Origin: Cucumis sativus
Lineage: Eukaryota > Streptophyta > Magnoliopsida > Cucurbitales > Cucurbitaceae
DNA length: 64,000 nt
Assembly (NCBI RefSeq): GCF_000004075.3
Contig: NC_026655.2
Location: forward strand, 6,696,001 to 6,760,000
Direction of reading: 5' to 3'
Part shown: one piece after another, positions 3,661 to 46,600 of the stretch
Numbering within the stretch: position 1 is the first letter of the stretch
Layout of the letters: the number at the start of each line of letters is the position of its first letter
Notes under the pieces: generated by a model
What the model was told of the DNA's origin: nothing
What the model saw: the letters and a program-made list of their open reading frames with translations, nothing else
Database searches by the model: none
Translations under genes and position numbers: made by a program

Positions 3661-3979
3661 TGTCTGGGAAGCGCTTGAGGTTTACGGATACTTTCCGAAT
3701 ACATCTCCTGCATTTTGTTCACTGTTTCTAATCGTTTTTTAGGCTTCATCATCTGGCAAATGTGGATTCAGTCAGTTCCCATTTGACTCGTTCCCTTGAA
3801 GCAATATCAAGCGTGTTACATCCTGTTTTCATTCTTTCTCTTACAGTTCTTTACTATTTGAGATCACGGGAGTAGCTACATGATTTTCCTAACCTTCATT
3901 CACTCTTTACTCGTTTGTTTTTCAATCCTCTTATCACTTTTGATGATTTGTTTTATTAATTACGATTCGGAGTTCAATC

Positions 3980-4062
3980 TTGACGGTGATGAGTCTATCA
4001 GACCTGTTATGATTTGCGAATATGATCGCAATCTATAATGAACATCTAAGGGACTGAGTTGC
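3980..4062 (+). ncRNA. Box C/D snoRNA with two 18S rRNA guides (U61-like)
   Basis: A perfect C box (GTGATGA, 3986-3992) and D box (CTGA, 4054-4057) lie 61 nt apart. Next to box D, 13 nt at 4040-4052 (GAACATCTAAGGG) are exactly complementary to 18S rRNA CCCTTAGATGTTC. By the D+5 rule this would direct 2'-O-methylation of the first U after CCC, near the site of vertebrate U61. Upstream, 3999-4010 (CAGACCTGTTAT) complements 18S ATAACAGGTCTG, which is only five bases from the first target. It is followed by a degenerate D' (ATGA, 4009-4012) and C' (ATGATCG, 4022-4028). The terminal stem is weak. The rRNA sequence is recalled from established 18S data. The two adjacent matches make chance unlikely. 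Confidence 0.8.
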
Positions 4063-4129
4063 TTCATTGTGCTCCGATTTATTCCAAAATTCACTAGTTT
4101 TATTTATTTGTTTGTTTGTTTTGATTTAT

Positions 4130-4276
4130 GTTGTGCCTCACTTTCTGAACATTGATTTTGTATCTAGCTTTACATTCAATGAAGTTCGAACTCATAGTGA
4201 GGCCTAGATGAACGTTCTCCTCGCTATCCAGAGTTTCATTTAACATGATCCATTTGGACGTCGGAGAACTACATTC
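4130..4276 (+). ncRNA. Box H/ACA snoRNA candidate
   Basis: The first hairpin has outer stem GCCTCACT (4135-4142) with AGTGAGGC (4196-4203) and inner stems GAAC/GTTC and ATTGA/TCAAT, leaving an internal pocket. An H box AGATGA (4206-4211, consensus ANANNA) follows at once. The second hairpin has outer stem GTTCTCC (4214-4220) with GGAGAAC (4263-4269), an inner TCCA/TGGA stem and a pocket of TCGCTA and CGTC. It ends with ACA at 4271-4273, three bases before the presumed 3' end. The order hairpin, H, hairpin, ACA and the length of about 145 nt fit plant H/ACA RNAs. I could not assign the pseudouridine target. Confidence 0.65.
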
Positions 4277-37214: not shown

Positions 37215-40200
37215 CTACATGTATCCTCCTTGCTGCTGCTGCTGCGGTTGTTGTGGGGGAGGCTGCTGGTAATTTCCATACCCACCATAGCCACTGTAGA
37301 ACATATTAGGGTCCTGAGGAGCTGGGGCATAGCTATAGTTTTCGTATCCTTGTCCATATCCGTAATAGCCACCTCCATTCCATTGGTTAGGGTCCGCCTG
37401 TGGCTAAAAAGATGAGAAAATAATGAACATTCGGAAAGAACTATAATCAATAACCATCAACGGACACAAAGAGTACAATACCACAACCTGTTTATTTGAA
37501 GGACTACGTCCCCATGAGAGTCTAATGTTCTGTCCACCAATTTGTGTTCCATTCAACACACGTAGCGCTTCCTCAGCACAGTTCCTAATAACAAAATTGA
37601 AATAACCATCAAATGTGTCCAAGCCAATTCAGGAGAGATTAAGATGTTAGGTTACATTTGTTAGAACTACCAAGCTGTTTCATATTTTTAAAAGAAACAA
37701 AATACAAACCTGTCAGCAAATTGAACGAAACCACATCGTTTGCCTACAGGTATCTTTACATGCACCAATTCCCCATATTGACCAAATACTTGTCGCAAGT
37801 GTTCGTCTGTCACGTTAGCATCCAAATTGCCCACAAATATCTGCAATAGGATTTCAGAAGTTAGAAAACTCAAATAAAATTACATGACGAAGGAAAAATA
37901 AGGTAAAGAACCCACAGTCGTATTGTTTGGATCATTCTCATTCTGAGCCCCTTGAGGATTCTGATATGAAGCTGCAATAGTAAAAAATCAAACCTAAATG
38001 AACTTGCTCTTTAACTTGAACCAACCAGTTCAGCAGTTGTTAAACACACAATATCAATTATTCTGCTACAGTCCAAGCTTGCATAAATAATATACATCAA
38101 TGCAATAAGCAATGTGTACTGAGAAATAAAAAATAGAATCCACAAGACCTGCATAAACACTGTGTGCTCCACTTATAACAAATCAAACCTCCAACCAAAT
38201 AATTCCATAGCTGGTTGGCTTAGAGGGCTGTTGAACTAGGCTCAATGCCATATGTTGCATGTTCAAAAAAGACTCCAACAACAAAATTGAAACACAAGCA
38301 AATTTTGAATTACAGAGTCACACTGTTTTAAATGGTTCGATGCAACCTAAAGTCGGCTTCATTATAGGGGGAAAAACCAGAGGCAGTAGGTATAACGGGC
38401 AACATAGAAGTACTCATATTGAGAAATCACGAAGAATACCAAAATAACAAGAACTACAAAAGATATCCAGAAAATTACGTACATAGGAAGTCCATTTTCA
38501 CAAACAAAATTGGGAAATTTGAAAAATATACATTAGAGCGATATTTGTTACAAAATAGCATAACTAGAAGACAAGTACCAATTTCAACGTGTGCCCTAAG
38601 AAATATAAAACTAGACAATATTTCAAATAGAAGTTTTGACAATCCATAAAGGCACAATCATAATTATCTAATGATGATCACCATACGGCCAAAATATAAA
38701 AAAAGAAAATAAACATGCTCATTTCAACATAGAATGTAAATTTGAAAAACATAGAGAAACACATTATTAAAAAAGAAATTGACATAATAAAGCTTTTCAT
38801 CATAAAAAACTAGATATCACAACTAGAGTACCTAACTTCAGACTCAAACAACCATATTATGCCATTCTCAGAATCCACCGCACCTAACTTGCACAACCAT
38901 TCACATAAAAGTGATTCACACAACGGAACAGAATAAAACAATTAATAGGATCCTACTTAAAAGAACAAAGAAAGTATACCCGAACATATCTATGTCCAAT
39001 TCAAAACTTTAGAAGATGAACGAAATATTCTAAAGGAATGACAAAATGAATACCAAGATACACAACAAAAAACTAGTAAGAAATAAGACTCCTAAGAACC
39101 CTAATAACACTAAGAAACATGACTTTGTGCTGACCAAAATTCTTTTGCAGGTAATGGGTTGGACACATAAATGAGATCCAATCATCAAATACTGAAATGA
39201 AACAATAGGAAGGTAAAACCATATAACCCTAAATGCCAGGAGGAGAAGGACAAGCACAACCCTAAGTGGCCAGCAATAGCCGCAAGACATACTGAAATTT
39301 CAATAATGAAACTGGCTAAAGAACCTGCGTACCCTAAACTTAATAAAGAAAAAATAAAAACTTCCAACGGAATTAAGACTGAAATACCAGGGAGACAAAA
39401 AAAATACCCATGCAGATGATAGGAAAAGGTAAACGTTGCAGAACTAAAGGTGAATTAAAAACCGTAGCATAAATATGCCACATAAAAAAAAAGAGGTAAG
39501 ACATTGGCGGGAAAAAAACTGACCTAAATGGAACAACGTACTAAAGGGTAAGCATGTCAGCTGAAATCAGTAGCGGACCCCAAGCTGACAGAGCCTTTTG
39601 ACACCCTGCTTAAAGAAAAGAGGAGTTTTATAAGTTTATTAATTCTTCTTTATAGTACTTAAAATGACCAAAGCTCGAATTGGAAGTACACGATGGAAAG
39701 GCATGAAAGGCTACTATTCTTCCAAGGTATACGAGAGGGGAATTAAAATGCTAGAAACTAGTAATAAAAGTAACGGAGAGGAGCTAAATCAGGACAGAAA
39801 ATAAGAATTGTGTCTGGCCATAAGAAAGCAAAATGCATCCAGAAACACAAATCAGTAAACACAAACGGCACATCCATACAATGAATGAATGATGGACAAG
39901 CTATTCCATACAAAATTTGATGCCCTGTCTTTCATTTAAAATGTTCCAGTTTGGGGAGGAATTCGTATTTACTTTTCGAGAACTGCTGACCGCCAGAAGT
40001 GTTCTTGTTAGCTGCTGGTCCGATTCGCATGGGTCTGGATGAACAGTGAACACCGTTCATCTCAGTCATTGCTCGCATTTGTTCAGACTCGTCCCCAAAC
40101 TTAACAAATCCATAACCCTTAGTGCGTCCAGTGAGCCTATCAATCACAACTTTAGCGCCCTTAACTGAGTTATAGCGTGCCCTAAATGTTTCTTGTAGCA

Positions 40201-40928
40201 CATAATCAGTAACATCACCAGCCAAATCTCCCACAAAAATAGTGTAATCAGGAGAGTCATCTTGTCGCTTCTCCCCTGCTGATGCCCAGTTCAATCTAAA
40301 ATTTTGAGCCCCATTGGGCATGGCGGTGCCATTATAAGTTTGAAGTACTCTTTCTGCAGCTGGACGAGTTAAAAACTCAATAAAACCGTAACCCTCGGAC
40401 TGGCCGGTTTGCTTGTTCCGAATCACTTTCACAGAGGAAACCTGGAGAGACAAACAATGTTAAATCTCAACAGCAAAAAAAAAAACGAAATTTCGGAACC
40501 GCTTCATATATACCAACATGTGTGTAGACAAATCTTTATGCAATCAACCTAATAATCACAAAACTAGATCTTTTTTTTCCCAACAACAACGATAAAAAGA
40601 AATAATAAAGACACACACACACAAGATCTAAAGTGGGTGGCGTTCTTAGACGTACCTCGCCAGTATGAGCAAAACAATTAAAGATATAGTTCTCGTCCAT
40701 CCAGTACTGCAAGTCTCCGATCCAGAGGGTACGAACCTCATCCCCGTTGGCAGACTGAGGGGGTTGGCCCTGTGGGGAACCGGCCTGTGGCTGCTGAGGC
40801 CACATCTGAGGAACAGGCTGAGGTTGGGGCGGCTGAGGGGGCATCATCATGTAAGGAGGTTGCTGTTGTTGGTACTGAGGGGCCTGGTGAGGCATGTTGT
40901 GAGGGGCAACACCAGGTGCAGGCTGCAT
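37215..40928 (-). CDS. RBP45-type RNA-binding protein, copy A
   Basis: Coding exons, 5' to 3': 40656-40928, 40441-39973, 37971-37916, 37840-37710, 37584-37488 and 37403-37215 (minus strand), giving 404 residues in consistent phase. The N-terminus is rich in Pro and Gln. Three RRMs follow: RRM1 (about 65-145) with TLWIGDLQYWMDE and GYGFIEF; RRM2 (about 158-237) with YTIFVGDLAGDVTD and GYGFVKF; RRM3 (about 267-340) with IFVGNLDANVTDEHL and CGFVQF. The C-terminus is rich in Gly, Tyr and Gln. This is the RBP45/RBP47 family: nuclear poly(A)+ RNA-binding proteins that move to stress granules. Copy B (43614-47321) is a tandem duplicate. Intron 2 (2.0 kb) holds a conserved cassette exon with an in-frame stop, suggesting control by alternative splicing. 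A telo-box lies about 95 bp above the ATG. Confidence 0.95.
39524..39605 (-). other. Candidate poison (cassette) exon in RBP45 copy A, intron 2
   Basis: On the minus strand a pyrimidine tract (CTCCTCTTTTCTTT) and AAGCAG acceptor precede 82 nt that end at the strong donor CATTTAG/GTCAGT. Joined to exon 2 in its phase, it adds about 21 codons and then stops at TAG (39543-39541), before RRM3; 82 nt also shifts the frame. The matching 82-nt segment of copy B differs at only two positions, and its stop is TAA. Inclusion would give a truncated protein or a transcript for nonsense-mediated decay. No transcript evidence is available here. Confidence 0.65.
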
Positions 40929-41020
40929 GGTAATGGAGAAAGGGATAAGAGAATCTCCTTAGTGAGGAAAGAAGGAGAAAGAAGAAGAGAGTTTTGAGTG
41001 TCTCGTCTGGACAAAGAGAG

Positions 41021-41035
41021 AAACCCTAACCCTAG
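41021..41035 (-). promoter_or_regulatory. Tandem telo-box of RBP45 copy A
   Basis: AAACCCTAACCCTAG on the plus strand is two overlapping telomere-type repeats, 93 bp upstream of the ATG. The same 15 bases occur at 47421-47435 above copy B, 100 bp from its ATG. Telo-boxes are known in promoters and leaders of genes expressed in dividing cells. Confidence 0.6.
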
Positions 41036-41099
41036 AAGCCGATAATGGGCGAAAAGGGAGGAAACAAAGAGAAGGGGGCCAGTGGGGGAATCGATTACA

Positions 41100-43300
41100 T
41101 TTATCGTTTTAAAAAAGGAAATAAAATAAAAATAATTTGTTTGGTACGTTTTTACTTATCCCAAAAACTCACCAAACCTTTCACATTTGGATTCACTTAG
41201 AACAAAGAAAATAAAATGTTTTTCTTTTTTTCTCTACAAATCGTTAAACATTTCTAAATACATCTGTCATTTTGTTTTATGTTTTCTATTTCTTCTTTTC
41301 AATTTTGAACTCTGCTTTTTAAAATATTTGGAAACTTGAATTCTATTTTTTGAAAACGGTTTTCCATTCGTATTTGTAGATAAACTATTTTCGGTCTATA
41401 AAATCGTCATATTTTTTATTTAATACTTTTTTTTTCTAAACTACACAGAAAAATGTATATAAACTTTTAAATGTTTTAGAAAAGGTTCTTAAAACTTTCA
41501 AAAAATATGTTTATTGTTATGAGATTTGGGTGGAGAATGAAGAAAGAAGAAAGTATGATTACTTAACAAGTTAATATCCATTAATCATTATTGTTACTTT
41601 TAATTATTAGTTATAAATTACTATTTAGACTTAATAAACTTCAACAAATACATTACTTTATATCATGTTAACTATTTAATATAAGAGATGGGTCGAAACT
41701 GAACCAAATCCAAGTCAATAGACCGTAGCTAATCCTTCACTTGAGGCATTCGACATAGATCCATTAATCTAAGAAAATTCCACAAATTGTTCTTCAACAA
41801 ATCGTGAATCTATTCTTCAAGAAAGAGAATGTGTCATATTCATATTTGATTGACCATCTCTAGCGAACAAATCATTTATTCGTTTTCAACAAGTTCACCA
41901 TCTATTCTTCAAATGAATATATCTTATTTTCTTCAACAACTTTGTCGTATATGCATCATCTACAAATTGAAAAATGAACTTTTCAAATGTTTGAAAACTT
42001 CGACTAATTGATCGACTTTTCATCATATAAAAACTGAAGACTGATATTCTGAAAATTTTGAAGACTTCATCAAATTAATCGTTTTTTCACCATCTACAAG
42101 TTGAAGATTGATCCTAAAAAAGATCAACAGGTCCAACGACTCATAATAGAAGAAGATCAACAAACTTAAAAATTGAATTTTATATATTTAAGAGAACATA
42201 CTAGACGGTAAAAATTAAATATTGTAATATTTGCATTTTCACAAATAAAATTTATTTGGTCAAAATCTCGTGTTAACCCATAGTTTTTTCTATAAAAGAG
42301 TGACAATGATGATAATCACAAACGATAATGGTAGCATTAGTGTTTATCAATAGGATGACAACTTATTTAGACATGTGCTCTCCTTGTATTATAACATAAT
42401 TAAACAACACTAAACATAATCACATGAATCCTTTTTAGATCACCGTTGATTCATTATTCGTTGAACATGAGTAAAACATGTCTTATTTTAATATATAAAA
42501 ATAATTAAATAAGAAAACCACCTACTAAATTTTACTTTTTGCTCGAGTAACTCGAATTGAGTCAAGTCAAATATTTCATGGTTGAATTTTGTTGGAATTT
42601 TTAACTAAAATTATTTAGTTTGAAGAAATCTACAACCCAATAAATGAATAAGCATACAACACAACTCAAGCCACAAATACTAATTCAAAACCAAGCACAT
42701 GAAGTCCAAACAGTACCAACCACACACCAATATTAGGTCTTCCTATTAAATTCAGTATTATAAGCTAACTTATTCCAATCTCCCACAATGTCTGGAAAAT
42801 ATATTTTCTCTCTTTGGAGGTGAAGAGATTTGAATGAAGAGCCAATACTTCACATGAAAGTTCCATTTTCATTAAGACTGATCACTTTTGGAAGATTTTA
42901 GACATTGTATCTTTGGCATTAGTCCAGAAAAGAATTCAATTCGCAACATTAGTCCAAATCCATTTATGTATTTATTTAAGGATGAAATTTAAACTTAAGC
43001 GAACTTGTGTTTATAAACTCGTATAAGGCACAAAATTGAATCTAGCAAGTTGGAATTAATCTATTAATGAACTGTTGCATAAGGCGCATAATAGGATTAA
43101 GAAATTTGGAATTAATCTAGTAATGGCTAACCGATTTTAATTAAACAATGAATACACCTTCAATATTGTACAAGCAAAAGTTGAACAATTTCAGAAACCA
43201 AACGTCTCAATGGTTCGACGACAATTCCCATTGTACAGTAATACTATGAAAAAACATAACAAACAGTTTCAAGCCAGAAAAAGTGAAATAGGGTAGAGAA
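41100..43300. other. Spacer between the two RBP45 copies
   Basis: AT-rich sequence without a recognised gene. Repeated words such as ATCTATTCTTCAA near 41810-41910 suggest a small decayed repeat, but I cannot name a family. The 3' UTR of copy B probably starts near 43300-43500. Confidence 0.5.
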
Positions 43301-43613: not shown

Positions 43614-46600
43614 CTACATATATCCACCTTGTTGCTGTGATGGCTGCTGTGTTGCTGGTTGCTGGTAGTTCCCATACCCACCATAGCCACTGTAGAACAT
43701 GTTAGGGTCTTGGGCAGCTGGAGCATAGCTATAATTTTCATATCCTTGTCCATATCCATAATATCCTCCTCCTCCACCTCCTCCTCCATTCCATTGATTA
43801 GGATCAGCCTGAGGCTGTAAATTTAAAATAGAGGTCAATAAAGCTAATATATTATTTGCTTTAATGAATACAAGAATACAAGTGAAGCACAATAATAGTA
43901 CCTGTTTGTTAGAAGGACTACGACCCCACGAAAGTCTAATGTTTTGCCCACCAATTGGGGTTCCATTCAAAATGCGCAAAGCTTCCTCGGCGCAGCTTCT
44001 AAAATAGTATTAAGGAAAACAAAATACAAAACTCATGAGCAAATGAACACCACATGATGGGAAGAAGGGGCGTAGGTGTCATGAAAGCTTTTGAAAATAC
44101 CAACCTGTCTGAAAATTGAACAAAGCCACATCGTTTGCCTGCAGGAATCTTAACATGCACCAGCTCTCCATACTGACTGAATACTTGTCTCAAGTGCTCA
44201 TCAGTGACATTAGAATCCAAATTCCCCACGAATATCTGAAACAAAATCAAATAATAACTCATAAATACGTCCATGAGATAATATTGCTATTGAAAATTAT
44301 TGGAGTACCCACAGTTGTATTATTTGGATCGTTCTCATTCTGTGTGCCTGGAGGATTCTGGTATGAAGCTGCATTTGAAAATATTAAACTAAAATGACAT
44401 CTTCTATCAACATGAACTAAAAAAATCCTTAGATCATTTTTACCCAAGTCATTATCATGTTGCATTATCGTTATGGTAAATAATAGTAATGAAAATTAAA
44501 ACCAAGATACATGCAAACTAAAACATGATAAATTCAAATGACTAGCAATCAAAATATCCATGAAAAGAGACATCCATTCTTTAAATAGATGCAGAATTAT
44601 AACAGTCACATCCTGGCTGTAATAGCTAATACCGAACAACGGAAATAATTATAATTATATATATTACGGAGGGGGAGGGGACTAAACTCTTATGGGACCT
44701 GATTTTTTTTTTTATTCAAATGAAGATAACTTGAAATGGTCTTAAAATGCAGACAATGTGCCACATCGATAATTAATTCTCCCCTAAAAATTCCCATCAA
44801 ACAGAAGCCACCATAATGTCGACATTCCAACTCTTCAAAATTTCCATATTTGATTATTGTCTTCTCTATCATTCACTGAGGTTTACCTATTTTACACCTC
44901 AAAGATGTAAGCCTCCTATAATTTCAAAAAGGCATAAGATTTGAAGAACTTCAAGGCTTTCAGCTCATATCAATACAAAAACAATAACATGGAGATCGGA
45001 ATATGAAGAATAAAAGATACTGTGCCAAACATAATAAATGCAAAATAACCAAGTGATTCATCATGGAGACCAGATTAATTGTGAAAAAGCCTACATAATA
45101 ATACACGAGAAATTCTGATCTAATGAACTAAAATAAAACATATAGCCTCCTCAACTTCTGACTTGAGGCAACCATAATGTGACGTATTGGAAATTCTGCC
45201 ACGCACCACTATTTAGCCAATCAATCACATGAAATGATTCACACCAAGAAATGGTATGAGCATTAAAAAAAAAAAAACTAGAAGCCTTTAAATCAACAAA
45301 ACCAATCAATACAATCCTAACTACAAGAAAGATACATACAGAGCATACTTGGATGAAAATAGACCCACCGCGATGGAAGAAGAATAGAATATTCCAAAGG
45401 AAAGACTTAACGAAATACAGAGCTACAGAATGAAAAGCTAGTAAGAAATGAAAATTCAGGCAGATCAAGAAATGTATCAAAACCTTTTGTTGATAGATGA
45501 TTTGTCTACAAAAAGGGAATCCAACCATCAAATATTGAAAATAAAACATAGAGTAAATCCCATAAACCCAAAATATTAGGAGGTGAAGGACAAGCTCAAC
45601 CTATATGACCTACTGCAGTTGTAGAAGGAAAGTTCAGAACCAAACTATGTTACTCCAAATTCCCAGTTGCTGGAAATTTAAAAAAACCATCTAGCTAAAG
45701 AACCTAAGACAAGTGACCTAAACTTTAAAGAAAAATAAAGGAATTAGAAGTGGTAAAATGCCAGGGAGAGAAAAAAATACCCATGCAAATCAAAGGAAAA
45801 ACTAAACGTTGCAGAACTAAAGGTGAATTAAAAACCGCAGCATAAATATGCCACATAAAAAGAAAGAGGTAAGACATTGGCGGAAAAAAAACTGACCTAA
45901 ATGGAACAACGTATTAAAGGGTAAGCGTGTCAGCTGAAATCAGTAGCGGACCCCAAGCTGACAGAGCCTTTTGACACCCTGCTTAAAGAAAAGAGGAGTT
46001 TTATAAGTTTATTAATTCTTCTTTATAGTACTTAAAATGACCAAAGCTCGAATTGGAAGTACACGAAGGAAAAGGCATGAAAGGCTATTCTTCCAAGGTA
46101 TACGAGAGGGGAATTAAAATGCTGGAAACTAGAAATAGAAGTAACGGAGAGGAGCTAAATCAGGACAGAAAATAGAAGTTGCATTGCATCTTGCCATATT
46201 GAAAGCAAAATGAATCGAAAAACACTAATCAGTAAGCACAAATGGGCACATCCATATGATGAATGAATGACTGAGAAGATATTCCAAACAAAATTCAATG
46301 CCTTGTTTTTCATTTAAAATTTTCCAGTTTCGGGGGGGGGGAGTTCGTATTTACTTTTCGAAAACTGCTGACTGCCAGAAGTGTTCTTGTTAGCTGCTGG
46401 TCCGATTCGCATGGGTCTGGATGAACAGTGAACACCGTTCATCTCAGTCATAGCCCGAATTTGTTCAGACTCATCCCCAAACTTTACGAAACCGTAACCC
46501 TTAGTACGTCCAGTGAGCCTATCGATCACAACTTTAGCACCCTTAACTGAGTTATACCGTGCCCTAAATGTTTCTTGTAGCACATAATCAGTAACATCAC

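Follow-up and report, generated by a model that had tools for sequence, protein, structure and literature searches.

The closest described counterpart of the exon analysed here is the 45ABC motif, a cassette exon located in an intron of the RBP45A, RBP45B and RBP45C genes, which combines a NAGNAG acceptor, a donor with two GU dinucleotides and two predicted hairpins (Sack et al., 2025, RNA Biol., PMC12218528). The passages of that paper drawn on here report the motif in 112 of 113 angiosperms surveyed, with splice sites that are predominantly conserved across species, and included forms sequenced for 12 genes of six species. The NAGNAG pair is designated 3p1/3p2, and in AtRBP45A only the second site is annotated. 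Inclusion introduces a premature stop, and RT-PCR showed that the included form of all three genes accumulates in Arabidopsis mutants of nonsense-mediated decay (NMD). As for the structure, the covariation test performed by the authors was not significant (E 0.9), and they refer to partial support from unpublished mutants. They hypothesise autoregulation through the exon and mention a follow-up that is being prepared. The paper cites an earlier study of conserved non-coding sequences and an NMD data set, with Burgess and Freeling and Drechsel et al. (2013) among its citations; the terms Cucumis, cucumber and Cucurbit are absent from its main text. Among the matches listed from openly licensed literature on RBP45, RBP45B and the Arabidopsis loci, we recognised no other description of the RBP45 exon, and it is not described in the portions used here of PMC9813592, PMC11489095, PMC3526319, PMC6985371, PMC7450174 and PMC7263676.

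Two further plant systems, presented in the consulted parts of PMC12218528, resemble this arrangement. The Arabidopsis PTB1 and PTB2 genes likewise encode RNA-binding proteins and carry a cassette poison exon whose inclusion leads to decay, yet protein, exon and motif are different, and auto- and cross-regulation was shown by others for PTB1/PTB2, whereas feedback by RBP45 is only proposed. In turn, GRP7 and GRP8 are paralogous RNA-binding proteins that regulate themselves and each other via splicing and decay, but they do so through an alternative 5' splice site, in contrast to the cassette exon of the RBP45 pair. With regard to the proteins, Nam8 and TIA-1 are described as binding U-rich RNA after weak donors and contacting U1C, and Arabidopsis RBP45d as binding both U1C and a U-rich sequence downstream of the donor (PMC9813592). 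The same source reports interaction of Arabidopsis RBP45a, RBP45b and RBP45c with U1C in yeast two-hybrid and BiFC assays.

In the window, a stretch of 64,000 nucleotides of the Cucumis sativus genome, we found two neighbouring RBP45-type genes arranged in tandem on the minus strand, each with six coding exons (Table 1). Both encoded proteins possess a Q/P-rich N-terminal part and a G/Q-rich tail. The protein of copy A contains three RRM_1 stretches (Pfam), and its top sequence match in the PDB is yeast Nam8 (E 3e-49), followed among the solved structures by a poly(A)-binding protein and by TIA-1; plant RBP45 proteins are related to Nam8/TIA-1. We take the pair to be RBP45 genes, and presumably of the RBP45A/B/C type rather than RBP45D or RBP47, based on general knowledge of the family and on the poison exon itself. 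Intron 2, which separates the exon ending after RRM2 (at 39973 in copy A and 46355 in copy B) from the RRM3 exons (exon 3 starting at 37971 and 44368, respectively), is 2001 nt long in copy A and 1986 nt in copy B.

Table 1. Features of the tandem RBP45-type pair, in window coordinates.
Feature	Position	Strand	Basis
Copy A, RBP45-type gene, coding span, 404 aa	37215..40928	-	spliced reading frame
Copy A, exons	40928-40656, 40441-39973, 37971-37916, 37840-37710, 37584-37488, 37403-37215	-	
Copy B, tandem RBP45-type gene, coding span, 408 aa	43614..47321	-	spliced reading frame
Copy B, exons	47321-47049, 46823-46355, 44368-44313, 44235-44105, 43998-43902, 43814-43614	-	
Poison (cassette) exon, copy A, 82 nt, in-frame TAG 39543-39541	39524..39605	-	sequence; features match the 45ABC cassette exon
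Poison exon, copy B, 82 nt, in-frame TAA 45916-45914	45897..45978	-	sequence
AAGCAG tandem acceptor (NAGNAG) of the copy A exon, pyrimidine-rich upstream	39606..39611	-	sequence
Donor GTCAGT followed by seven T (copy A); candidate site for a Nam8/TIA-1-like U1 helper	39510..39523	-	inferred role, after PMC9813592
Conserved block surrounding the exon, copy-to-copy identity 97% (11 of 373 aligned bases mismatched)	39424..39799	-	copy-versus-copy alignment
Less diverged 5' tract common to both copies, approximate, 5' UTR to mid intron 2; probable gene-conversion tract	39420..41110	-	identity profile, dS

The original prediction placed an 82-nt exon-like segment in intron 2 of both genes, and its coordinates, phase, splice sites and stop before RRM3 were confirmed from the sequence. 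So were the two differences said to separate the copies, one of which exchanges TAG for TAA; they lie at 39554/45927 (T/C) and 39541/45914 (G/A), and the remaining 80 of 82 positions are identical. In both copies the segment is bordered by an AAGCAG acceptor and a TAG/GTCAGT donor, which holds a second GU and runs into seven (copy A) or eight (copy B) T. Use of the first AG of the acceptor gives an 85-nt exon that shares its stop with the 82-nt form in either copy. Inclusion between exons 2 and 3 adds a split codon, 20 full codons and then the stop, located 17 nt from the exon end and 301 nt upstream of the last exon junction, and the included form ends after 268 or 269 residues in both copies. 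A scan of intron 2 with a simple consensus (donor-like sites matching at least 6 of the 8 bases of AG/GTAAGT; candidate exons of 40–250 nt) yielded three donor-like sites per copy, only the poison-exon donor occupying aligned positions in both. Candidate exons numbered seven in copy A and nine in copy B; three of them align between the copies, and each of these uses the poison-exon donor. Since aligned donors and candidate exons coincide only at this donor, the match between the copies is more than chance. A DNA search of the entire genome (226.6 Mb) gave two matches at E <= 0.001, namely both poison exons.

Compared by described features rather than by letter-by-letter alignment, the window exons closely resemble the 45ABC motif. 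They lie, as a cassette exon preceding the RRM3 exons, within an intron of an RBP45A/B/C-type gene (three RRMs, Q-rich), and in both copies they combine a NAGNAG acceptor, either site of which preserves the same frame, with a second GU inside the donor. Inclusion results in a premature stop here too, as judged from sequence only. What distinguishes this locus from the published report is the presence of two tandem copies with a mosaic history in one genome. We are highly confident that the window exon is the 45ABC cassette ('poison') exon, carried by each gene of the tandem RBP45A/B/C-type pair, with skipping leading to the full-length protein and inclusion to an early stop and predicted NMD. 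The earlier statement that such an exon was undescribed for RBP45 has been overtaken by the 2025 account in PMC12218528: an exon of this description is real and already known, and the present analysis adds that the tandem pair has a mosaic history and that its stop is redundant. Frame, splice sites and between-copy conservation of the exon are observed here, and inclusion and decay were shown in Arabidopsis by others; that Cucumis sativus uses the exon is inferred.

We found that the conservation between the copies extends beyond the 82 nt. Identity amounts to 187 of 191 aligned bases upstream of the exon and 95 of 100 downstream, and the exon does not stand out from its flanks (mismatches at 2/82 exon and 9/291 flanking positions; Fisher p = 1.0). 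The entire block (11/373 mismatches) is better conserved than the remainder of intron 2 on its upstream side (26/173, p = 7e-7) and than intron 1 (47/208, p = 1e-13), with p values that are flattering because the block limits were picked after the profile had been seen and sites were treated as independent. Yet, at 97% identity versus 77–85% in the neighbouring intron, the block exceeds the surrounding tract, and constraint on it therefore remains.

The tract around the block extends approximately from 41110 to 39420 of the window in copy A, against 47510 to 45800 in copy B. We determined that dS between the copies equals 0.21 for exons 1-2 (0.27 for exon 1 and 0.18 for exon 2) versus 1.55, a value near saturation, for exons 3-6. 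Intron 1 aligns at 77% and intron 3 at 56%, while BLAST between the copies of intron 2 matched the first ~700 nt at 87% and one 100-nt piece at 76%, with no match beyond that; upstream of ~41110 the alignment collapses. Gene conversion long after the duplication probably homogenised the 5' half (~41110 to 39420 in copy A). It is the simplest reading, as constraint on exons 1-2 alone would not explain the difference between introns 1 and 3. Since the 5' halves form a younger mosaic tract, the 80/82 identity is partly a matter of homogenisation. Pairwise identity hence overstates conservation, even though the block is still more conserved than its tract. This mosaic history calls for caution, in that similarity of tandem copies alone is not evidence of selection. 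The proposal of an alternative-splicing/NMD switch agrees with most of the comparable features of the published 45ABC exon, whereas near-identity of the copies as its signature is weakened by the homogenised 5' tract.

Because 82 = 3 x 27 + 1, inclusion of the exon shifts the reading frame. Were the poison-exon stop read through, translation would in both copies end at a further in-frame stop 17 codons on, still 250 nt short of the last junction. A premature stop is thus assured without the TAG/TAA codon, because the frameshift supplies another one. The TAG/TAA exchange had been regarded as a stop that survived a substitution, and as a sign of selection on the stop we rejected it: the codon is redundant with the frameshift, and one stop-keeping transition is weak evidence.

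As for RNA structure, a long hairpin was predicted within the exon in both copies, whereas the second of the two hairpins of the 45ABC motif was not clear. Fold energies (z from -0.9 to -1.4; 18 to 37 of 200 shuffled sequences reach the same or greater stability) lie within the shuffle range, and for this reason nothing is claimed from structure. Both substitutions fall at unpaired positions in two exon-only centroids, but in copy B the 94-nt minimum-energy fold pairs the G/A position, so that the folds are not settled; the two near-identical sequences are uninformative with respect to covariation.

Skipping of the poison exon would supply the three-RRM protein, while the included transcript, with its early stop before RRM3, should be destroyed by NMD because four exon junctions follow the stop. 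When abundant, RBP45 would bind the U-rich RNA just past the GTCAGT donor and help U1 snRNP to use it; stronger donor use would then raise inclusion and lower RBP45 output from either copy, amounting to auto- and cross-regulation. We somewhat favour RBP45 feedback of this kind as the trigger of inclusion. The RBP45 pair shares with the Nam8/TIA-1 systems the relatedness of the proteins and a donor running into a T run. Unlike the weak donors bound by Nam8/TIA-1, the poison-exon donor matches 7/8 consensus bases and is therefore not clearly weak, and RBP45A/B/C are candidates for binding there. In the number of T at +7 to +20, three of the ten ordinary donors of the pair exceed either poison-exon donor; since a T run after the donor is common in these genes, it lends the binding model weak support. 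Tandem copies with a common switch would make self- and mutual control by RBP45 directly testable in such a genome.

It is also possible, though somewhat unlikely, that the exon is the 45ABC exon but is controlled by other factors (the strength of U1, a PTB or GRP protein, or else temperature or stress), with no autoregulation by RBP45. Several observations against a U1-helper role bear on this. In PMC9813592 the contact of RBP45a/b/c with U1C was seen mainly in the cytoplasm, and its authors note that it may not have the same significance as the contact made by RBP45d; in the parts of that paper used here the rbp45a and rbp45c mutants, unlike rbp45d, had no effect on SOT5 intron 7, the sole intron tested. 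A GFP splicing reporter was reported not to respond to knock-outs of rbp45a, b or c as it does to rbp45d, and the paralogues were described as functionally nonequivalent (PMC7263676). The mutants are in this sense not equivalent to rbp45d in two assays, or in one for rbp45b. Binding of RBP45A/B/C to the exon was not found described in the portions of the literature examined, and autoregulation has the status of a hypothesis for the discoverers of the motif. Yet self-regulation is frequent among RNA-binding protein genes spliced in this way, GRP7/8 and PTB being examples (PMC12218528), which speaks against this reading.

Two other readings were considered as well. We give hardly any credence to the view that the 80/82 identity results from gene conversion between the tandem copies alone and that the segment is an unused relic: the jump in dS between exons 1-2 and exons 3-6 and the loss of alignment within intron 2 speak for it, but inside the tract the block has 3% mismatches versus 15–23% in other intron sequence, and the matching exon is reported to be conserved among flowering plants, with splicing confirmed in the six species tested (PMC12218528). 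The block could instead act chiefly through RNA structure or as an intronic element, the stop codon being incidental, which we regard as quite improbable. Such a reading accommodates the equal conservation of flanks and exon, the long hairpin predicted in both copies with its substitutions unpaired in the two centroids, the redundancy of the stop and the mutant data mentioned by the authors of PMC12218528; fold energies within the shuffle range, the paired G/A position in the 94-nt fold of copy B and the predominant conservation of the splice sites across species (PMC12218528) speak against it.

A further extension of the poison-exon model, which we consider unlikely, is that concerted evolution keeps the pair under one shared switch. 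Repeated gene conversion would homogenise the 5' half with the poison exon while the 3' halves drift, and each RBP45 protein would keep reading both switches because the 5' halves stay alike; any transcript that escapes decay would yield a protein confined to RRM1-RRM2, which might act as a competitor. If so, this product could bind U-rich RNA while lacking RRM3, the domain reported to contact U1C in Nam8/TIA-1.

Apart from the pair, the paralogue check covered six further RBP45/47-like loci of this genome, all from 25 listed protein matches, with weaker RRM matches left out. Four of them (L023-L026) are 63-68% identical over the RRM1-RRM2 exon, and L027 and L028 are 57-62% identical over shorter matches. 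The exon found no convincing match in L023-L026 (best E 0.44), and at E 0.01 the corresponding introns of these loci, cut approximately, did not match that of the pair, intron 2. The best hit in L027 and L028 (E 0.015) involves the upstream flank only, on the strand opposite to the gene, and is not convincing. No match of the exon core was detected in viral contigs, and no Rfam 15 family was found to cover the exon at E up to 5 or at gathering scores.

Between both RBP45 genes, at 42001-42081 on the minus strand, we noted a weak likeness to the C/D snoRNA snoR64, which at 22.5 bits against a gathering score of 45 is probably due to chance. Elsewhere in the window, on the plus strand, a C/D box SNORD25-type snoRNA and an H/ACA snoR136 (3979-4063 and 4131-4276), both above the Rfam gathering scores, are situated 67 bases apart.
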